DNA of 64,000 nucleotides, taken from the NCBI GenBank assembly GCA_919902495.1, contig CAKKRC010000038.1, positions 1 to 64,000 of the forward strand, written 5' to 3'. The number at the start of each line of letters is the position of its first letter. Within the stretch, counting starts at the first letter, position 1. A program made the position numbers and the translations under genes. This DNA comes from Nitrospiria bacterium. GTDB lineage: Bacteria > Nitrospirota > UBA9217. The notes beneath the pieces are model-generated. The model ran no database searches and was not told where the DNA came from. It worked only from the letters and a program-made list of their open reading frames with translations. Positions 6,720 to 58,126 of this stretch are shown piece by piece.

Positions 6720-9700
6720 CGGATCGTTACCGGATCTTGTGCCTGATCTGCGCTGTTCTCGTGGCTGCGATCGGGCTTGTCGCTCTTCTCGGATGGGTCA
6801 TTGGCCGTCCTACCTTAGTCAGCCTGGGGTCGGGCATGATACCGGTGGCGCCGAGCACGGCGGTGATGTTCATGCTGTATGGCGCTGCTGTTTTCATCCG
6901 CACGCGTCTTCCGGACAGCCGGTCGGCATATTGGACCGGTCTTTCCATCACTGCCACGGGAGCGCTTGTGGCGGCGCTCCTGCTCAATTCGTCTCTTCGG
7001 GGTATACAACCTGATGCTGAACATCTCGGTTTTACGATCGTGAACAGGCCGGGTGAAACGCCGGTGGGGCATATGTCTCCCGTCACGGCATTCTGCTTCC
7101 TGTTATCGTCTCTATCGTATCTCCTGTCTCTGCCGTCGACGCGCGATCAACGCCTGGCGGCCAACCTCGCATGGTGGTTTGCCTGCTGCACGATCGCGAT
7201 CGGCTTTACGCTCATCCTGGCGTATCTCTACGGAACGCCGATGCTGTACGGCAGCACCTTCATTCCTCCGGCAGCGCTGACCAGTATGGCGTTCATGGCC
7301 CTTGGCACCGCACTGCTTGCTTTGGCAGCTCCCCATGCCTGGACGACCCGTTCGCATGTCGAATCCACCACACGCGCCTCGTACACCTTCGTGCTCGTGT
7401 TCGTCCTTTTGGCGGCGGGTATCGTGATCGCGGGATTCATGTATTTCCGGAGCTACGAATTACGCTACCGTACAGAGGTAGAACGTCAGCTATCCGCCAT
7501 CGCCGATATGAAAGTGGAAGGAATTGTTCATTGGCGAAAAGAACGGCTGGGGGATGCCGCGCTTTTTTATAAGAACGGGAATTTTTCCGGGTTGGTCCGT
7601 AGCTATTTGAAAAGACCGGAGGATGAAGTGACCGGGAGAAGGCTTCGGGCGTGGCTGCAGCATATTCAGAAAAGTTATCAATACGACCGGGTCTTCCTGC
7701 TCGATGGTATCGGCAGGGACCGAATGTCGGCGCCTGAAGCGCGGCGGCCGATATCACGCCATCTGCTACTGCGCGCCGCTGAGGTCCAGCGCACGAAACA
7801 GGTTGTCTTGGAGGATTTCTACCGGAATGAACATGATAAACGTGTCTATCTGGCGGTGCTGATCCCCATCCTCGACGATCGGGGCAATGGCCGCGCAGTG
7901 GGGACCCTTGCGTTGCGCATCGATCCCGAACAGTACCTCTATCCATCTCTCAACCGCTGGCCGACGCCGAGCAAGACCGCCGAAACCCTGCTCGTCCGGC
8001 GGGAAGGAAATGAGGCCCTTTTCCTGAATGAGCTCAGATATCAGAAGAACACGGCCCTCAGTCTGCGAAGCTCGCTGGAAAGAAAAGAACTTCCCGCTGC
8101 TCAGGCGGTCCTGGGCCGGAAGGGCATTATGGAGGGCAGAGACTACGCGGGTGTACCGGTGATCGCCGATGTGCGCGCTGTTCCCGGTTCTCCATGGTTT
8201 CTGGTCTCCCGCATGGATCTCTCTGAGGCTTATGAACCGATGAGAGAAAAACTGTGGATGATGGTCGCGCTGGTCGGCGCTCTGCTCATGGGCGCGGGCG
8301 GGGGCGTGGGGCTGGTCTGGCGGCGGCAGCTCGCACAGTTTTACCGGGTGAAATTTGAGACAACAGCCGAGCTGCGCGCTTCGGAGGTGCGTTACCGCAG
8401 ACTCTTCGAGACGGCCAAAGACGGCATTCTGATCCTCGACGCCGAAACGGGGATGGTGGTGGACGTGAATGCTTTCCTGATCGAGATGCTGGGTTTTTCG
8501 TACGAAGTATTCCTTGGTAAGAAGATATGGGAACTTGGATTCCTTAAGAATATCGTCGCCAACCAAGACAACTTCGCGGAATTGCAACAGAAGGAATACA
8601 TCCGTTATGAAGACATGCCGCTGGAAACTGCCGATGGCCGGCGGATCGAGGTGGAGTTCGTCAGCAATGTCTATCTGGTGAACCACCAAAAGGTCATCCA
8701 GTGCAATATCCGCGACATCACGGATCGCAAACTCGCGGAGAAGAAGCTGAGAGAAAGCGAAGAGTTCATTCGAATAGTTCTGGATAACCTACCTATCGGC
8801 ATAGCGGTGAATTCCGTTGACCCTGCCGTGCAATTTGATTTTATGAACGAAAACTTTGCCGGGTTCTACCGAACAACACGAGAGAAACTTGCCGAGAAGG
8901 ATACTTTCTGGGAGGCGGCGTACGAAGATCCTGACTTCAGAGAGAAAATTAAAAAAAGGGTGCTGGAGGATTGTGCCAGTGGAGACCCGGAGCGAATGTT
9001 GTGGGTAGACGTGCCGATCACCCGCAGGGGAGCAGAGACCACCTTCGTCAGCGCAAAGAACATCCCGCTTCGTGATAAACAGCTGATGATCTCAGCTGTG
9101 TGGGATGTCTCCGACCGCAAGCGGGCTGAGGAACGGATCAAAAGAATGAATGAGGAACTTGAGCAACGCGTCAAGGACCGCACTGCCCAGCTCGAAGTCG
9201 CTAATAAAGAGCTGGAGGCTTTTTCCTACTCCGTGTCCCATGACCTGCGCGCGCCGCTCAGGCATATGTCCGGATTCGTCGAACTGCTGAACAAGCGCAC
9301 GCAGTCACTTGACGATAAGAGCAGGCATTATCTGGATGTCATTTCGAAAGCAGCAACGCAGATGGGCAAACTCGTCGATGACCTGCTGTCGTTCTCCCGG
9401 ATGGGTCGGACCGAGATGATGAGGTCCTCGGTCAGGCTCCGGGACACGCTCAAAGAGGCCGTCGATGATATGAAAAGTGAGGTTGGGGAGAGAAACATCC
9501 GATGGGACATCAGAGACCTGCCGGAGATCTCCGGAGACCGGGCGATGCTCAAGCTTGTCTTTGTTAACCTGCTTTCCAATGCTCTCAAGTTCACGAGACA
9601 GCGTGAGCAGGCCGTGATCGAGGTCGGCTGCGCTCCGTTCGAAACAGCGGATGATGCCATCGTGTATGTGAAAGACAACGGCGTCGGGTTCGACATGAAG

Positions 9701-47561: not shown

Positions 47562-48953
47562 ATGAAAAGAATATCGGGATTGATCTTATTGTTTCCGATG
47601 CTTATTTTGTTGGCTGGATGCGGGACCGCATTGACACGGGCTGCAAGAGATGGAGACATCGCTGCCATCCAGAAACTGCTCGATCAGGGGGCAAATATAA
47701 ATGAAAACGCTATAGTAGGAGGTAGTATGAATGGATCGCTTTTAAGCCAAGCTGCATACTACTGCCGTATTGAGGCGATAAAGTATTTAATACATAAAGG
47801 AGCTGATATAAATAATGCAACAGGTTGGACAGATTATGGTGCTAGTGGTGGAGGGTTGAGACCTTTGCATATGGCTGCAAGATCTGGTTGCACAGAGGCA
47901 ATAAAACTCTTGCTCGATGCAGGCGCTGACATTGATGTAAGAGCAAATGAGCTCTTCGGGACTGCTCTGGCAATAGCCGCATATCATGGTAATATTAAGA
48001 GCGTAAAATATTTACTTGAAAGAGGGGCTGACGTTGATGATGCAAGCCAAGTTCTTGAAGCGCTTGACGGACTGAGAGAGAGAGGTGGTAAAGAAGGTCT
48101 GGCATTGCTCCAGAAGTTTGAAAAGCAGAAAATTGCGGTCCGGCTTCCTGAAAATACACCTTCTTCCATTGTTGCCAAATCCGATGTTGACGAACTTCCT
48201 GCAATAAAAGCAAAACTAAATAAAAACTCCTACGCTATCGTTATCGGCATTGAGAATTATCGCCAGAAACTTCCAAAGGCTGATTATGCGGTGGCTGATG
48301 CAAAGACAATGACAGAATATCTCACAAAGGTGATGGGCTATCCTGATGAGAATGTTATTGCACTCACGAACGACCGCGCGTCCTTGACGGATTTTATAAA
48401 ATACTTTGAAAAGTGGCTGCCGAACAATGTTGCGAAAGATAGTTCCGTCTTTATCTATTTCTCAGGCCACGGAGCCCCAAATCCCAAGACCGGTGACGCC
48501 TACTTGGTCCCTTATGATGGAGATCCATCTTTTATAGACGAGACCGGATATTCCCTCAAGCGGATGTATGATGCTCTCGGCAAAATGCCTGCTAAGGAAG
48601 TGATCATTGCGCTCGATTCCTGCTTCTCCGGTGCCGGCGGCAGGTCGGTGATCGCCAAGGGAGCACGACCCATCGTCCTGTCGACCGAGAATCCCGCGAT
48701 GCTGAGCAAGAACATGACCGTGCTGTCAGCGTCAGCAAGCGATCAGATCAGTTCCACGTACGACGAGAAGGGGCACGGACTATTCACCTACTTCATGTTG
48801 AAGGGCATCAAGAACGAGGACGTGGTGAAGCAGGACGGCTCGATCGATATCGCATCGCTATTCGATTACATAAAGCCGCAGGTGTCGAGCATCGCCCGGA
48901 AGAAATACAACAACGAGCAGACGCCGCAACTGGTTGGGGCGCAGAAGAACTGA
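47562..48953 (+). CDS. Ankyrin-caspase (peptidase C14) lipoprotein
   Basis: The protein has 463 residues: a lipoprotein signal (LILLAGC), three to four ankyrin repeats (about 23-165), a linker and a C14 caspase-like domain (about 220-460) with the catalytic His in YFSGHGAPN and Cys in LDSCFSGAG. It would be an envelope-anchored metacaspase-like protease with a protein-binding domain. The 5' half is more AT-rich than the trp genes around it, hinting at transfer. It lies on the coding strand between trpB and trpA, so it is likely read with them. Confidence 0.85.
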   Translation: MKRISGLILLFPMLILLAGCGTALTRAARDGDIAAIQKLLDQGANINENAIVGGSMNGSLLSQAAYYCRIEAIKYLIHKGADINNATGWTDYGASGGGLRPLHMAARSGCTEAIKLLLDAGADIDVRANELFGTALAIAAYHGNIKSVKYLLERGADVDDASQVLEALDGLRERGGKEGLALLQKFEKQKIAVRLPENTPSSIVAKSDVDELPAIKAKLNKNSYAIVIGIENYRQKLPKADYAVADAKTMTEYLTKVMGYPDENVIALTNDRASLTDFIKYFEKWLPNNVAKDSSVFIYFSGHGAPNPKTGDAYLVPYDGDPSFIDETGYSLKRMYDALGKMPAKEVIIALDSCFSGAGGRSVIAKGARPIVLSTENPAMLSKNMTVLSASASDQISSTYDEKGHGLFTYFMLKGIKNEDVVKQDGSIDIASLFDYIKPQVSSIARKKYNNEQTPQLVGAQKN

Positions 48954-48981: not shown

Positions 48982-49794
48982 ATGTCACGCATCAAGAACA
49001 CCTTTAACCGGCTGAAGAAGAAGAACGAGAAGGCGCTGATCCCCTATATCATGGCGGGGGACCCCGATCTCGCCACGACGAAGTCGATCATCCTCGCGAT
49101 GGAAAAGGCGGGCTGTGATATAATCGAGCTGGGCGCGCCGTTCTCCGATCCGCTGGCGGACGGCCCCACGATCCAGAAGGCAGCTCTCCGCTCGCTCACG
49201 CACCACACGAGCATCAAGGACGTGCTCGGGCTCGTGGCCGATGTCAGGAAAGAAAGCAAGATACCGCTCATCATTATGACCTACTACAACCTCATTTTCC
49301 ATTACGGAGAGGAGCGGTTCGTGAACGACGCGGTGGCCGCGGGCCTGGACGGCGTCATCCTGCCGGACCTCCCCCCCGAGGAGGCTGGTGCGCTCATCGC
49401 CCTGGCGAAGCAGGCGGGGCTCGATACGATCTTCCTGCTGGCGCCCACGAGCACCGACGACCGGATCAAGGCGGTCAGCAAGGTATCCCAGGGCTTCATC
49501 TACTATGTTTCGCTCACCGGCGTGACCGGTTCCCACCTCGGCCTCCAACAGGCGGCCATCAAGGATTCCCTCGCCCGGATCAAGGCGCAGACGGACAAGC
49601 CCGTCGCCGTGGGATTCGGCATCGCGACGGCGGACCAGGCGGCGCAGGTGGCGGGGTCGGGCGCTGACGGGGTGATCGTGGGGAGCGCCCTGGTGAAGGT
49701 GATCGAGGAGAACAGCGGTTCACCGGACCTGGTGGCAAAGGCGGCCGCGTTCGTGAAGGCCCTGAAGCAGGGCGTCCTTACGGTCACGCAGTAA
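48982..49794 (+). CDS. trpA: Tryptophan synthase alpha subunit
   Basis: The protein has 270 residues from ATG 48982 (GAGG site). The catalytic Glu is in IIELGAPFSDPLADGPTIQ and Asp in GVILPDLPPEE; GVTG, VGFGIATADQA and VIVGSALV bind phosphate. It is separated from trpB by 2.1 kb of inserted toxin-antitoxin and caspase genes although the two subunits act as one complex. Confidence 0.96.
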   Translation: MSRIKNTFNRLKKKNEKALIPYIMAGDPDLATTKSIILAMEKAGCDIIELGAPFSDPLADGPTIQKAALRSLTHHTSIKDVLGLVADVRKESKIPLIIMTYYNLIFHYGEERFVNDAVAAGLDGVILPDLPPEEAGALIALAKQAGLDTIFLLAPTSTDDRIKAVSKVSQGFIYYVSLTGVTGSHLGLQQAAIKDSLARIKAQTDKPVAVGFGIATADQAAQVAGSGADGVIVGSALVKVIEENSGSPDLVAKAAAFVKALKQGVLTVTQ

Positions 49795-49821: not shown

Positions 49822-51555
49822 ATGAGGAAAGCGGCAACGAAAAAACCTGCAACGGCCAAAAAAGCAGCCGCACCGAAGCGGCCGGCAGCGCAGAAGCAGG
49901 CCACTGATACCCTGCGCATCCAGGCGCAGGCGCTGAAGGAACTGGTCTCGCTCGAAAAGATCAAGCAGGAATTCCTGCACGACAACGTGACCGGGGCCGC
50001 GGAGCTCGACACGCTCCTCGGCGACTACCTCAAAGTGATCCTGAAGCTCACCCGCACCCAGGCAGGGTCCATTATGCTCAGGGAGGGCGACCACTTGGTG
50101 TTCCGTGCCAGCCGGGGCCCCAAATCCGCATCGCTCCTCGGGCGGAGCATACCGCTCGACGAAGGGATCGCCGGATGGGTGGCGCGGTCGGGGAAGGCCT
50201 ACCTAAGCTCCGATGTGGCGAAAGACACGCTGTGGAGCAGCAAGATCAGCGCCGAACTTCGCTTTGCCACGAAGAACATCCTTGCCGCTCCCCTGAAGAC
50301 CGCGGACAGCGTCACCGGCGTCGTGGAGGTGATCAACAAGGTCAACGGCATGCCCTTCGACAAGGACGACAAGGACATGCTCGAGGTCCTGTCGGGGCAG
50401 CTCGCCCTCGACGTCGCCTATGTCCAGTTCCTGGGGAGCAGCCGCAAAGAGGCCGCACGGAAGGCCATGCAGACCCAGTTCTCCATGGTGCTGAATTCCA
50501 CGCTGGACCAGCGCGAGATCCGGAAACGGGCCATGGAGGCCGCGACGAGCCTCCTGGACGCCGAGGTCGGATCGCTCCTGCTGGTGGACGAGAGAACGAA
50601 CGAGCTGTTCTTCGAGGTCGCGCTCGGCAAACAGGGAGAGCAGCTGAAGCAGGTGCGGCTCCGCATGGGCGAGGGGATCGCCGGCTGGGTGGCCGCGAAC
50701 GATCAGGCCGCCCTCGTGAACGACGTGGCGAACGATCCCCGCTATTACAAGAAGGCGCAGCACATCACCCAGTTCGTGACCCGGAACATGGTCTGCGTGC
50801 CGGTCCGCTCCCGCGGGAAGGTCATCGGCGTGCTTCAGGCAATCAACAAGAAGGACAACGGCCTGTTCACCGAGCAGGACCTGGATGACGTTTGGACGCT
50901 GGCGAACCAGGTGGCGGTAGCGCTCGAGAACGCAAACCTCTACGCCGAGCTGCAGGATACCTTTCTGAACACGGCAGAGGCCCTCGCCGCCGCGGTGGAA
51001 AAAAAGGACCCGTACACCGGCGGCCATATCATGCGGGTGGTGGAATACAGCATGGCGATCGCCAAACATATGTCGCGGACGATCAGCGACATGGCCCAGC
51101 TCAGGCTTGCCGCGGTCCTGCACGACATCGGCAAGATCGGGATCAAGGACAGCGTGCTCCTGAAGCAGGGGAGGCTCACGGACGACGAGATGGCCCACAT
51201 GCGCGAGCACCCGCTCGTGGGCGACGACATCATGGGGCATATCGAGCAGATGAAGACCGTGCGGAAGGTGATGCGCGCCCACCATGAGAAATGGGACGGC
51301 AGCGGCTATCCCGACGGCCTCAAGGGCGAATCCATACCGCTGCACGCGAGGATCATCCTGGTGGCGGACACCCTGGACGCCATGACCACGGACCGGCCCT
51401 ACCGGAAGGCCGCCGACCTTCCGGCCGCCGTGGAGGAGGTCAAGCGGTTCATGGGCAAGGAGTTCGATCCCGTGGTGGCAGAGGCATTCTTCAAGGCCTG
51501 CGAATGCGGGGACATTATCGTGCGCAAAGGGACGACGGAAAACCGGGAGACGTAG
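49822..51555 (+). CDS. GAF-GAF-HD-GYP phosphodiesterase
   Basis: The protein has 577 residues with a Lys/Ala-rich N-terminus (1-28), two GAF domains (about 55-195 and 225-365) and an HD-GYP domain (about 375-555) with HDIGK and HHEKWDGSGYPDGLKG. GAF domains often bind cyclic nucleotides or other small ligands, which here would adjust c-di-GMP breakdown. It is 27 bases after trpA and upstream of the Crp-cyclase group, so a link between the two second messengers is possible. Confidence 0.92.
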   Translation: MRKAATKKPATAKKAAAPKRPAAQKQATDTLRIQAQALKELVSLEKIKQEFLHDNVTGAAELDTLLGDYLKVILKLTRTQAGSIMLREGDHLVFRASRGPKSASLLGRSIPLDEGIAGWVARSGKAYLSSDVAKDTLWSSKISAELRFATKNILAAPLKTADSVTGVVEVINKVNGMPFDKDDKDMLEVLSGQLALDVAYVQFLGSSRKEAARKAMQTQFSMVLNSTLDQREIRKRAMEAATSLLDAEVGSLLLVDERTNELFFEVALGKQGEQLKQVRLRMGEGIAGWVAANDQAALVNDVANDPRYYKKAQHITQFVTRNMVCVPVRSRGKVIGVLQAINKKDNGLFTEQDLDDVWTLANQVAVALENANLYAELQDTFLNTAEALAAAVEKKDPYTGGHIMRVVEYSMAIAKHMSRTISDMAQLRLAAVLHDIGKIGIKDSVLLKQGRLTDDEMAHMREHPLVGDDIMGHIEQMKTVRKVMRAHHEKWDGSGYPDGLKGESIPLHARIILVADTLDAMTTDRPYRKAADLPAAVEEVKRFMGKEFDPVVAEAFFKACECGDIIVRKGTTENRET

Positions 51556-51559
51556 TTCA

Positions 51560-51653
51560 ATTGCGGATTGCGAATTGCGGATTGCGGATTGCGGATTGAT
51601 GACCGGTAGAACTTAATAAAATCCGCAATCCGAAATCCGAAATCCGCAATTCG
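51560..51653. repeat. Intergenic inverted repeat of GCGGATT units
   Basis: The left arm 51560-51599 has tandem TTGCGGATTGCGAATTGCGG units, and the right arm 51620-51653 carries the complement (AATCCGCAATCCGAAATCCG). It fills nearly the whole gap between the HD-GYP and Crp-like genes. Confidence 0.75.
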
Positions 51654-51668
51654 ATAAGGGGGTAGGAT

Positions 51669-52310
51669 ATGGCAGAAGCGCAGTCACCAATGTTCGCAAA
51701 GTTCGGGAAAAGCTTTCCCGCAGGTACCGTCCTTTTCCGAGAGGGCGACAAGGGCGAGGAGATGTTCATCCTGCAGTCCGGGAAAGTAAAGATCAGCAAG
51801 AAGATCAGGGGTGTGGAAAAGACCCTCGCCACGCTCGAGAAGGGCGAGTTCTTCGGGGAAATGGCGATCCTGAACGACAAGCCGCGCTCCGCGTCGGCCG
51901 AAACGATCGAGGACTGCGACATGCTCGTCATCGACCGCAAGACCTTCGAGACCCTGCTTCGGAGCAATGTGGAGATCGCCATCCGTTTCATCAAGCGGCT
52001 CGCGGACCGGCTTCGCGAGACGAACGATCAGATGGAGGCCCTGATGATCAGGGACAATACCAGCCGGCTGGTCAATATCCTTGCCAAGCTGGTGCGGGAG
52101 AAGAAGGGCGCGATCTCCATCTCGATCGATGAGCTTGCAGGGATGGCAGGCATAGAAGGCGAACAGGCCAAGATGATCCTGGAGAAGCTCGCCAGCGTCC
52201 GCATCCTGACGCTCGGCGCGGACGAACATGTGTCAATCGCGAACCAGGAGCAGGTGGACCGGCTGCTCCGGTATCTTGAGATGCGTGAGATCTTCGGAGA
52301 AATGGTTTAA
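51669..52310 (+). CDS. Crp/Fnr-family cyclic nucleotide-binding regulator
   Basis: The protein has 213 residues: a cyclic nucleotide-binding domain (about 8-125) with the phosphate-binding cassette GEFFGEMAILNDKPRSASAE (conserved Glu and Arg), a dimer helix and a C-terminal winged-helix-like part (about 150-205). The Arg/Glu pattern suits cAMP. It is followed by an adenylate cyclase and a phosphodiesterase, so it is probably the receiver of that signal. Confidence 0.88.
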   Translation: MAEAQSPMFAKFGKSFPAGTVLFREGDKGEEMFILQSGKVKISKKIRGVEKTLATLEKGEFFGEMAILNDKPRSASAETIEDCDMLVIDRKTFETLLRSNVEIAIRFIKRLADRLRETNDQMEALMIRDNTSRLVNILAKLVREKKGAISISIDELAGMAGIEGEQAKMILEKLASVRILTLGADEHVSIANQEQVDRLLRYLEMREIFGEMV

Positions 52311-52398
52311 CAGACGATAGGCGTCAGGCGATAGGGCGGGTAACGATCCGGTAATCCCTTTACGCCTAACCCCTTACGGTAATGAACGGGAGCCATAC

Positions 52399-54309
52399 AT
52401 GCATTTACCCAATATCAAGAGGACCGGCATTTACATCGCCCTGATCGTTGCGGTCACGCTTTCCCTGCTGCACACGATGAACTTCAACTTCTTCGAGGTC
52501 CTGGAGGCCAAGACCCTCGACGTCCAGTTCAAGTTGCGGGGGCCGGTCAAGCCGGGCCCCGAGACGGTGATCGCGACGATCGACGAACGAAGCATCAAGA
52601 ACCTCGGGAGGTTCCCCTGGCCCCGTTCCACCTGGGGCCGCGTGGTGGACCGGTTGACCGAGGAGGGCGCAAAGGTCATCGTGTTTGACGTGTTCTTTGC
52701 AGAGCCTGAGACGGTCGCTTCCGACGATCTGTTCCAGCGCGCCATTATGCAGAGCGGGCGGGTTGTCCTGCCGGTCGTCTTCGATTTCGTAGAGGGCGGC
52801 GACAAGGAGACGGGTTTCACCGACCAGAAACTGGACTTTCTCCTCCCGTCGGCGTACATGGCGATGAAGAACACCGAATCCCCCTTCGGCGCCCCCCCGG
52901 CAAAGATGGTCCTGCCGACGCTCCTCCGGTTCTCGACCTTCGCCAGGACCCTCGCGCATATCAACATGAGCCCCGACATCGACGGGACCCTTCGCTGGGA
53001 GATGCTTGCCGTCGAGTACCAGGGCGATTACTACGCCCCCATCGGCCTGCAGGCGGCGCGGTTGTACCTCGACGTCCCGCCGGAGAAGATGACGCTCGAT
53101 TTCTCCGGTTCCGTCCAGGTCGGCAATACGGTCATCCCCACCGATGAGTTCGGCAGGATGCTGATCAATTACCGCGGTCCGAACAAGACCTTTCCGATGT
53201 ATCCCATCTCGGACCTTCTCGACCGGAGGCTTCCGGCAGGCGCGTTCAAGGACAAGATCGTCCTGATCGGCGCGACGGCCATCGGGATCTATGACCTGCG
53301 CGTGACGCCGTTCTCGACGAACATGGCGGGGATCGAAAAACACGCCAGCGTGGTGGACAACATCCTCCGGGGGGATTTCCTGCGCAGGGCGCTGGACCTC
53401 GATATCCCGCTCATCTTCGTCTTTACGCTCATCCTCGGCATCCTGATCCCGCGTCTCGGCGCAAAGGCCGGCGTCGCCCTGTTCCTCCTGCTGTTCGCCG
53501 GGTACTCGGTCTTTGTCTATTACCTGTTCGCGTCAAAGGGCATCTGGTTCAGCTACATCTACCCCGCATCGGCGCTCTTTTTCGGCTATACGAGCCAGAC
53601 GGCCTACCGTTTCTTTACCGAGGAGCGCCGCGCACGGGACATCCGGAAGATGTTCTCCAGCTACGTGTCGAAACGCATTGTGGACGAACTGATCCGGGAC
53701 CCGAGCAAGGCAAAGCTCGGCGGCGACCGCAAGGAGATCTCGGTGCTGTTTTCCGACATCCGGGGATTCACCTCCTTCTCCGAGAAGCATCGGCCGGAAG
53801 AGGTCGTAACGCAGCTGAACGAGTATCTCGGGGCCATGACGAGCGTCGTCTTCGAATATGACGGCACGCTCGACAAGTTCGTGGGCGACGCGGTGATGGC
53901 CTTCTGGGGGGCGCCGCTCGACCAGGCCGACCACGCCGAGCGGGCGTGCAGGTGCGCGCTGTCCATGATCGGAAAACTGCAGGAGCTCCAGAAGAAGTGG
54001 GAGTCCGAGGGGAGATACGTGATCGACATCGGGGTCGGCATCAACACCGGCGACATGATCGTCGGGAACATGGGCGCCGAGGGCAAGAAGATGGACTTCA
54101 CCGTCATCGGCGACAACGTGAACCTGGGCGCCCGGTTAGAGAGCTTGACAAGAAAGTATAATAATCATATTATCATATCGGAATTTACCTATAGCAGGGT
54201 AAAGGACCTCGTGAAGGTGAACGAACTCGGCTCGGTGACCGTCAAGGGCAAGGAGCAGCCCGTCGTGATCTATGACCTGGTGGGGATCAAGGACGAAAGC
54301 ACCAAATAA
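52399..54309 (+). CDS. CHASE2-domain class III adenylate cyclase
   Basis: The protein has 636 residues: an N-terminal membrane segment, an extracytoplasmic CHASE2 domain (about 30-325), three membrane helices (about 330-410) and a class III cyclase domain (about 440-625). Both metal-binding Asp residues are present (VLFSDIRGFTSF and FVGDAVMAFWGAP), and MDFTVIGDNVNLGARLE has the purine-recognition Asp usual for ATP. It senses an external signal and makes cAMP. It lies between the cAMP receptor and the phosphodiesterase. Confidence 0.92.
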   Translation: MHLPNIKRTGIYIALIVAVTLSLLHTMNFNFFEVLEAKTLDVQFKLRGPVKPGPETVIATIDERSIKNLGRFPWPRSTWGRVVDRLTEEGAKVIVFDVFFAEPETVASDDLFQRAIMQSGRVVLPVVFDFVEGGDKETGFTDQKLDFLLPSAYMAMKNTESPFGAPPAKMVLPTLLRFSTFARTLAHINMSPDIDGTLRWEMLAVEYQGDYYAPIGLQAARLYLDVPPEKMTLDFSGSVQVGNTVIPTDEFGRMLINYRGPNKTFPMYPISDLLDRRLPAGAFKDKIVLIGATAIGIYDLRVTPFSTNMAGIEKHASVVDNILRGDFLRRALDLDIPLIFVFTLILGILIPRLGAKAGVALFLLLFAGYSVFVYYLFASKGIWFSYIYPASALFFGYTSQTAYRFFTEERRARDIRKMFSSYVSKRIVDELIRDPSKAKLGGDRKEISVLFSDIRGFTSFSEKHRPEEVVTQLNEYLGAMTSVVFEYDGTLDKFVGDAVMAFWGAPLDQADHAERACRCALSMIGKLQELQKKWESEGRYVIDIGVGINTGDMIVGNMGAEGKKMDFTVIGDNVNLGARLESLTRKYNNHIIISEFTYSRVKDLVKVNELGSVTVKGKEQPVVIYDLVGIKDESTK

Positions 54310-54426
54310 CAATATTCAAATCACAAATAAATTTCAAAGTCCAATGAAGCAAATTTCAAACGTTTCGGACATTGGAGTTTTAATTTTGGATATTATTTGA
54401 AATTTGTCGTTTGGGGTTTGAAATTT
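54310..54426. repeat. Intergenic inverted repeat of TTTCAAA units
   Basis: AT-rich tandem ATTCAAATCACAAATAAATT-type units on the left are matched by complementary GAAATTTGTCGTTTGGGG on the right. It fills the gap between the cyclase and the phosphodiesterase genes. Confidence 0.6.
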
Positions 54427-54446
54427 TCTTTCCCCGAGGAGACTGA

Positions 54447-55214
54447 ATGAAGGTAAAAGTACTGGGGTGCTCAGGATCGGAAACGATCGGGCATATGCCC
54501 CCCGGCTTCCTCGTGAACGACCGGGTGATGCTGGATGCGGGCACCATCAGCGCGGCGCTCAGTATCGGGGCGCAGAGCAGGATCACCGACATCTTCATCA
54601 GCCATACCCACCTGGACCACATCAAGGGGGTCCTGTTCCTGGCGGACAACATCATCGGCCGGAACAAACAGCCCGTCAACATCCGGGCGATCCCGAAGGT
54701 CATCGATGCCATCAAAAAACACCTGATGAACGACCTGATCTGGCCGGACTTCACGAAGATACCCACGCCGAAGGACCCGGTGCTTGCCTATAAACCGTTC
54801 CCCGCCGGCAAGTTCATCAAGGTGGCGGGCCTCACGGTCAAGGCGATCCCCATGACCCATCCCGTGCCCGCGGTCGGCTTCCTGGTGAGCGACGGGAAGT
54901 CCTCGTTCATCTATAGCGCGGATACGGGCCCCAACGAGGGTCTGTGGGCCGAGGCGAAGAAGGTAAAGAACCTGAAGGGCATCATTGTCGATACGTCCTT
55001 TCCGAACAGCATGGATTTTGTCGCCGGCTTGAGCGGTCACTTCACCCCTGCCCAGCTTCACGAGGACCTCACGAAGGCCAGGGTTGCGAACAGCGTGCCG
55101 ATCTTCGTTTATCACATCAAACCCGTGCATAAGAATCGGGTGATCAAGGAACTTCGCGCCCTGGGGAGAAAGAATGTCAAGATCCTTCAGGAAGGGAAGA
55201 CCTATACGTTCTAG
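54447..55214 (+). CDS. Class II-like 3',5'-cyclic nucleotide phosphodiesterase (MBL fold)
   Basis: The protein has 255 residues of the metallo-beta-lactamase fold with SHTHLDHIKG, MTHPVP and YSADTGPNE metal motifs, in the layout of class II cAMP phosphodiesterases (PDE1/CpdP type). Next to an adenylate cyclase and Crp-like protein, cAMP hydrolysis is the likely job. A GAGGAG site precedes the ATG. Confidence 0.85.
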   Translation: MKVKVLGCSGSETIGHMPPGFLVNDRVMLDAGTISAALSIGAQSRITDIFISHTHLDHIKGVLFLADNIIGRNKQPVNIRAIPKVIDAIKKHLMNDLIWPDFTKIPTPKDPVLAYKPFPAGKFIKVAGLTVKAIPMTHPVPAVGFLVSDGKSSFIYSADTGPNEGLWAEAKKVKNLKGIIVDTSFPNSMDFVAGLSGHFTPAQLHEDLTKARVANSVPIFVYHIKPVHKNRVIKELRALGRKNVKILQEGKTYTF

Positions 55215-57531: not shown

Positions 57532-57744
57532 ATGAAGGCAGTGAGCAGCCTGAAAATAGACAAATCTTTTGTCACCGTTTCCCGGCTGACCGATATTCCG
57601 GATGATAAAACATACTGGCTTTCTAAAACCCCCTACGAGCGAATGCAGGCAGTCGACACCCTCCGGCGACTCAATTATGGCGAACGTCAATCTACCGCCC
57701 GACTTCAAAGAATTCTTGAGATTACTCAACGCGAATCGCGTTGA
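57532..57744 (+). CDS. Small antitoxin-like partner of nucleotidyltransferase
   Basis: The protein has 70 residues with the pattern YWLSKTPYERMQAVDTLRRL then RLQRILEIT, as seen in small proteins encoded just before AbiEii/MNT-like nucleotidyltransferases. It overlaps the next gene by 68 bp. An antitoxin role is inferred from this pairing. A ribosome binding site (GGGAGGAA) precedes the ATG. Confidence 0.7.
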   Translation: MKAVSSLKIDKSFVTVSRLTDIPDDKTYWLSKTPYERMQAVDTLRRLNYGERQSTARLQRILEITQRESR

Positions 57745-58126
57745 GTATCTGCTCATCGGCGGCTACGCGGTGGCCTATCATGGCTACCCACGCGCAACCG
57801 CCGACATGGATCTCTGGATCGCCTTACACCCCCGCAACGCAGAGACAGTTGTTTCCGTTCTAAAGAAATTCGGCTTCAACACTCCCCAGCTTACTCCAGG
57901 CCTGTTTATGCAGGAAGATCAGATCATTCGGATGGGTTTGCCGCCGGTCCGGATCGGGATAGCGACGTCGATCTCCGGCGTAAACTTCGATGAGTGCTGG
58001 TCCGCGCGGATCGTCGATGTCCTGGATGATGTGGAAGTCAATGTCATCAGTCTCGACGATCTCAAACGAAATAAAAAGTCCGCGGGACGGCACAAGGACC
58101 TTGACGACCTGGAGAACTTGCCGTAA
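57677..58126 (+). CDS. MNT/AbiEii-like nucleotidyltransferase (putative toxin)
   Basis: The protein has 149 residues from ATG 57677. The nucleotidyltransferase core LLIGGYAVAYHGYPRATADM with the following DLW holds the catalytic Asp pair. It is a small stand-alone enzyme of the toxin-antitoxin type that probably modifies tRNA or protein. With the preceding gene it forms a pair placed between the DUF362 and FeS genes. No flanking tail repeat was found for this pair. Confidence 0.78.
   Translation: MANVNLPPDFKEFLRLLNANRVEYLLIGGYAVAYHGYPRATADMDLWIALHPRNAETVVSVLKKFGFNTPQLTPGLFMQEDQIIRMGLPPVRIGIATSISGVNFDECWSARIVDVLDDVEVNVISLDDLKRNKKSAGRHKDLDDLENLP

Follow-up and report, generated by a model that had tools for sequence, protein, structure and literature searches.

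We report four consecutive genes in a Nitrospiria bacterium that probably form a cyclic AMP (cAMP) module wired to cyclic di-GMP (c-di-GMP), in which cAMP would gate c-di-GMP breakdown through a GAF domain and a phosphodiesterase would reset the gate. The genes lie at positions 49822-55214 of the 64,000-nucleotide stretch of contig CAKKRC010000038.1 that was analysed here (the window), in a draft genome of 3.67 Mb that is 97% complete. The original prediction had named the four gene types and remarked that the maker, reader and breaker of cAMP stand together. Open reading frames (ORFs) at these coordinates on the plus strand and their Pfam identities bear out the first statement; the second is supported by the same identities and by the catalytic and ligand residues of the predicted proteins, which hold. 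The features are as follows.

49822-51555, plus strand: GAF-GAF-HD-GYP protein, 577 aa (Pfam GAF twice and HD_5)
50476-50943, plus strand: second GAF domain (GAF2) of that protein, predicted to bind cAMP (N342 K343, F349, D353; D305, R307; T320)
51669-52310, plus strand: Crp-like cAMP receptor with a divergent winged-helix domain, 213 aa (Pfam cNMP_binding, 97 bits, cut-off 27.5)
52399-54309, plus strand: CHASE2-transmembrane-class III adenylate cyclase, 636 aa (Pfam CHASE2, 206 bits; Guanylate_cyc, 95 bits)
54447-55214, plus strand: class II (metallo-beta-lactamase fold) cyclic-nucleotide phosphodiesterase, 255 aa (PDEase_II, 72 bits, cut-off 23.7)

The first protein (GAF1 at about residues 55-205, GAF2 at about 206-375, HD-GYP at about 387-565) is predicted to be a phosphodiesterase of c-di-GMP or a related cyclic dinucleotide. 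Its HD-GYP site is complete (H402, H434 D435, H463, H487 H488 E489, G495 Y496 P497, D516), with both the HD pair and the HHExxDGxGYP motif, and the site residues are invariant in a 30-row alignment. The motif recurs in 42 of 48 extracted homologues, and three of the six misses (L040, L057 and L090; here and below L denotes a locus, G a genome and f a Nitrospirota family, f1 being that of the window) are truncated ORFs. Tyr398 occupies the position of a Glu in the trinuclear enzyme 4mcw, and we therefore guess at a two-metal site. In the AlphaFold model, which has a mean predicted local distance difference test score (pLDDT) of 84.9, long helices link the tandem GAF domains to HD-GYP, and the model matches the HD-GYP enzymes 4mcw and 4r8z as well as 1ykd (CyaB2), PDE2, PDE5, PDE6 and 5w10 (Lcd1). 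With 30 GGDEF matches in the genome, c-di-GMP synthesis is likely in the host.

The GAF domains may well read cAMP, as had been proposed, since sequence and structure comparisons both point that way. NKFDE is the motif of GAF domains that bind cyclic nucleotides (cNMP), and its core, NKx(n)Fx3D, is present in GAF1 and GAF2 alike and at least once in 44 of the 48 extracted homologues; among the 29 GAF_2 matches of the genome it occurs in four, two of which are those of the window protein. In phmmer searches of the PDB the best match of GAF2 is the cAMP-bound GAF domain of Lcd1 (5w10, 3.2e-26), and CyaB2 (1ykd, 1.6e-23), PDE5 (3.1e-20) and PDE10 (2.7e-18) are also found, which places GAF2 near proven cNMP-binding GAF domains; structural relatives of GAF1 are PDE6C (4.3e-15) and PDE2A (5.5e-12). 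Control GAF domains from two HD-GYP paralogues of the genome (queries delimited by Pfam, 140 and 135 aa long, compared with the 156-aa GAF2 query) reached 5w10 at 1.4e-6 and 0.0068, and CyaB2 was not among the matches listed for either. These two controls and the motif count rule out a resemblance common to any GAF domain.

The third gene is predicted to encode a class III adenylate cyclase, the maker of cAMP. All of D453 and D497, K493/D566, and N575 and R579 are present, which we take to be the metal Asp residues, the adenine-type purine pair and the transition-state pair, respectively; the Guanylate_cyc score exceeds its cut-off, and the nearest solved relatives are the bacterial class III adenylate cyclases 6fht, 2w01 and 3r5g. 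The fourth protein, the single PF02112 (PDEase_II) match in the genome, is predicted to be a class II cyclic-nucleotide phosphodiesterase that hydrolyses cAMP. Its best solved relative is yeast Pde1 (4ojv), with which it has an NDLIWPD stretch in common; H53 H55 D57 H58, H138, D159, H198 and H223 are invariant in a 24-row alignment, and the H-x-H-x-D-H metal site is found in all 139 extracted relatives. The score against NCBIfam NF041851 (cyclic nucleotide-degrading phosphodiesterase) is 37 bits, below the cut-off of 400; that model covers another group. A generic metallo-beta-lactamase or RNase Z identity was rejected, as the NCBIfam RNase Z model gives 44 bits against a cut-off of 293 and PDEase_II exceeds its own. 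Across the phylum, 187 of 295 genomes have a match to the phosphodiesterase with an E-value no higher than 0.001, although the least significant ones may represent other metallo-beta-lactamase proteins.

For the Crp-like protein, the name of receptor is backed by the cNMP_binding match above cut-off and by the phosphate-binding cassette, in which E64 (of GE) and R73 S74 (of RS), presumably the cAMP-pocket residues, are present and invariant in 19 aligned homologues, a set that includes two non-orthologues, L098 and L158. None of the helix-turn-helix (HTH) families in Pfam is matched by the window protein, so that the sequence does not likewise back the name of transcription factor; HTH_Crp_2 is matched in 14 of the 19 rows at a lax E of 0.1 or below. 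The C-terminal half of the structure model has winged-helix elements and a long last helix, and Foldseek aligns the model, which is weak (mean pLDDT 66, low in the N-terminal half), full-length to Crp proteins, best to 4ev0. Its mode of DNA binding may differ from that of Crp, or it may bind no DNA.

Taken together, these parts suggest the following course. A signal on the CHASE2 domain would lead the membrane cyclase to make cAMP, for which there would be two readers, the Crp-like protein and, within the GAF-GAF-HD-GYP protein, GAF2. Judging by the class of GAF domain and the precedent of Tlr0485, described below, cAMP on GAF2 would most likely turn on c-di-GMP breakdown by HD-GYP, and the class II phosphodiesterase would destroy cAMP and so reset both readers. 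The parts of this reading that the sequences back are the domain identities, the catalytic and ligand residues, the recurrent gene order and the 4-base overlaps of relatives; cAMP as the GAF ligand, the enzyme activities and the activating direction of the cAMP effect are predictions.

The order of the four genes is conserved in f1, and neither of the two tests by which the original prediction might have failed, on synteny and on the ligand residues of the GAF domains, goes against it. The phosphodiesterase is matched in 13 of 14 f1 genomes, the exception (G073) being 74% complete, and all 12 others that have it agree with the window in order as far as their contigs extend. Five loci (L037, L042, L043, L044 and L046) have the complete order of HD-GYP, Crp-like, cyclase and phosphodiesterase genes; L041 has it too, although its contig breaks off inside HD-GYP, and L040 has it with a shortened HD-GYP gene of 216 aa. 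Contig edges limit the remainder: L045 begins with the Crp-like gene, whereas L038, L039, L047 and L048 stop at or inside the cyclase.

Across the phylum, 140 phosphodiesterase loci from 29 Nitrospirota families were fetched, and a GAF-HD-GYP homologue (at least 42% identity) lies within 4.5 kb upstream of the phosphodiesterase in 53 loci and 12 families (51 loci when L040, with its shortened gene, and L057, with GAF only, are set aside). In at least 36 of the 140 the HD-GYP gene stops no more than 300 bp from the phosphodiesterase gene, and in 22 loci, L057 included, the two genes share a 4-base start/stop overlap (18 ATGA, 2 GTGA, 2 TTGA). In the rows aligned, the homologue match outside f1 and f4 spans GAF2 and HD-GYP only. 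The layout trpA, HD-GYP, phosphodiesterase, accD is seen in f5 (9/9 loci), f21 (7/10), f13 (1/4) and f30 (1/1); a Crp-like gene stands between HD-GYP and phosphodiesterase in four of five f3 loci, two of three f6 loci have trpA and a Crp-like gene without HD-GYP (the third ends at a contig end), the sole f4 locus has Crp-like, FecR and cyclase genes, and a cyclase lies downstream in six of eight f16 loci. L052:6248-7570 encodes a FecR-domain protein between a Crp-like gene and a CHASE2 cyclase. The pairing of HD-GYP with the class II phosphodiesterase appears to be the older core; the Crp-like and cyclase genes vary between lineages. In a tree, 54 linked HD-GYP rows (Halobacteriovorax included, and the window gene entered twice) stand apart from 16 unlinked rows, a non-systematic sample, with support of 82/74, which is below the strong threshold; because ‘linked’ beyond 330 bp also needed 45% identity, the tree is partly circular. 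Three linked genes, L228 (the window gene), L179 and L171, were labelled ‘other’, which gives rise to the tool's four changes.

A likely cAMP reader and a likely cAMP eraser that are recurrently paired suggest a self-limiting gate. We tentatively propose, at somewhat less than even confidence, that a co-translated reader-eraser pair exists across much of the phylum, in which the cAMP-bound GAF-HD-GYP protein would break c-di-GMP and the partner phosphodiesterase would end the activating signal, giving a time-limited fall of c-di-GMP for each cAMP pulse; some lineages would have added the Crp-like reader and the CHASE2 cyclase, completing a possibly local circuit. The same overlaps could also indicate that the main role of the GAF protein is to control the phosphodiesterase, a cAMP-sensing complex of the two adjusting cAMP breakdown with HD-GYP as a second output. 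L057 fits this alternative, having at 9046-9603 a GAF-only protein of 185 aa that still overlaps the phosphodiesterase start, and with just this GAF protein before it the GAF protein may act on the phosphodiesterase also; the protein may come from an HD-GYP gene whose catalytic half was lost or was never present. Yet L057 is a single genome and the NKx(n)Fx3D pattern was not found in its GAF domain, two genes stand between HD-GYP and phosphodiesterase in f1, and the HD-GYP residues are invariant across the 30 aligned rows, and we consider this alternative unlikely.

The gating of c-di-GMP breakdown by cAMP also has to be set against mere inheritance, in which an old trp-acc cluster would have kept signalling proteins that each serve a separate pathway. 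Many loci have trpA-phosphodiesterase-accD or phosphodiesterase-accD without signalling partners, and the genome is rich in paralogues of signalling proteins, as this explanation would have it. However, HD-GYP and phosphodiesterase are paired away from trpA and accD in f11, f16 and f27, adjacency of cyclase and phosphodiesterase recurs in Betaproteobacteria, and cyclic-nucleotide genes are enriched near the phosphodiesterase: over the 140 loci, matches of the window's HD-GYP protein number 124 per Mb in the nearest 1.5 kb versus 9-22 per Mb at 4.5-8 kb, and over the same distances cyclase matches fall from 82 to 3-8 per Mb and Crp-like matches from 52 to 0-8 per Mb (related genomes are counted separately, making this a contrast of densities and not a significance test). 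Inheritance alone is in our view an improbable account. Chance adjacency is ruled out by the conservation in f1 together with the fall-off in density.

Several observations weigh against the cAMP-gated module as we read it. The window genes are without tight overlap, their spacers being 113, 88 and 137 bp. Within the module, the recognition helix of the Crp-like protein looks degenerate, as judged from its sequence (EGEQAKM in the window versus SRETLSR in L158, by which comparison basic residues are missing). The genome holds, this locus included, 6 class III cyclase, 13 cNMP_binding and 14 HD_5 matches, and with such further cyclases, cNMP-binding and HD-GYP proteins the circuit need not be closed. 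Moreover, 58 of the 140 loci lack any match to HD-GYP, Crp-like or cyclase genes within 4.5 kb of the phosphodiesterase (5 of them with less than 1.5 kb of upstream sequence); f9 supplies 30 of the 58 from its total of 33 loci, the other three having just weak HD-GYP matches or a cyclase on the opposite strand. The phosphodiesterase can thus function without partners. As to the ligand, the final E of NKFDE is missing from both GAF domains (DK in GAF1, DL in GAF2), although cAMP-bound Lcd1 likewise has DL there, and in structure comparison high scores also go to GAF domains whose ligands are different (DosS, PtsP, fRMsr), so that the fold alone cannot name the ligand. The GAF domains of PDE5, PDE6 and PDE2 bind cGMP, so that the ligand may be cGMP instead of cAMP. 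An alternative in which the wiring is unchanged but cGMP or a different cyclic nucleotide serves as the common ligand would agree with the presence of PDE5, PDE6 and PDE2 among the GAF matches, but GAF2 matches cAMP-bound Lcd1 best and the cyclase pair K493/D566 is of the adenine type; we hold this alternative to be quite improbable, and retain cAMP as the predicted signal.

Three further features adjoin or interrupt the four genes.

end at 49794, plus strand: trpA, 5' of the HD-GYP gene (confirmed by NCBIfam)
51556-51668, plus strand: intergenic palindromic repeat forming a hairpin, between the HD-GYP and Crp-like genes
55293 (start TTG) or 55338 (probable start ATG) to 56183, plus strand: accD (confirmed by NCBIfam)

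The four genes do lie between trpA and accD, as originally pointed out, but this split is not special to the window genome, since the phosphodiesterase parts trpA from accD at many further loci of Nitrospirota, whether HD-GYP is present or absent. In one f1 locus, L043, accD has no match 3' of the phosphodiesterase. The hairpin has a folding energy of -47.3 kcal/mol (z -5.4), and the 17-base core of the palindrome has 42 copies in the genome as compared to none for a reversed-pattern control, which marks it as a dispersed intergenic repeat. Between trpB and trpA, the window has an ankyrin-repeat and caspase (Peptidase_C14) gene at 47562-48950. In the same gap of relatives, caspase matches are found in L043 and L046 and a DUF6036-like nucleotidyltransferase in L040, L044 and L046, and L037 has neither; with contents that differ among relatives, the gap looks like a variable site. 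A small DUF6036-type nucleotidyltransferase is also encoded in the window at 57602-58126, 3' of a DUF362 gene.

A comparison across phyla covered at least 51 loci, drawn from the matches listed. Among these, the only HD-GYP gene outside Nitrospirota directly upstream of the phosphodiesterase is that of Halobacteriovorax (Bdellovibrionota), with accD after.

L186:5392-8392: GAF-HD-GYP, class II phosphodiesterase and accD genes, consecutive

In Bacteriovorax (L181) the gene upstream of the phosphodiesterase is a methylase rather than HD-GYP. In Betaproteobacteria (e.g. L190, L195 and L205), as in the family of the window, a CHASE2 cyclase gene lies directly upstream of the class II phosphodiesterase; unlike the window, those loci have no trpA or accD match, and no HD-GYP match directly upstream of the phosphodiesterase. 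Beside the pair of one betaproteobacterium, L195:8771-9838 encodes a protein with cNMP_binding and rhodanese domains.

Cross-talk between cAMP and c-di-GMP has so far been known from a few single proteins, and here the wiring can be seen in how genes are ordered in a dozen families of a single phylum; this suggests what the class II phosphodiesterase, widespread in that phylum, may be for. Because f1 joins maker, readers, breaker and output, the circuit could be rebuilt from four genes and is directly testable. Titles and abstracts in the literature covered, which excluded subscription papers and most preprints, hold no description of the conserved pair or the complete circuit. The best solved relative of GAF2, Lcd1 of Leptospira (PDB 5w10), joins GAF to GGDEF and is described as a cAMP-activated enzyme of c-di-GMP synthesis (as cited in PMC8846402); Lcd1 makes c-di-GMP, whereas the output domain in the window should break it. 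In Bd1971 of Bdellovibrio, according to the parts of the accounts consulted (PMC6717892, PMC8846402), a cNMP-binding domain and EAL provide cAMP-gated c-di-GMP breakdown, the output predicted here, although the window would use another sensor and another catalytic fold; the portion of PMC6717892 consulted names no cAMP phosphodiesterase. A further precedent is Tlr0485 of Thermosynechococcus, a cAMP-activated GAF-HD-GYP c-di-GMP phosphodiesterase (Enomoto 2020, as cited in PMC8846402): in both, GAF is joined to HD-GYP and cAMP is shown or predicted to alter c-di-GMP hydrolysis, while, as far as that citing account goes, the window family differs in having two GAF domains and adjoining genes to make, read and break cAMP. 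Single cAMP-responsive GAF enzymes of c-di-GMP metabolism were already known; within the literature covered, the GAF-HD-GYP and phosphodiesterase core and the full circuit seem to be new additions to this kind of system.

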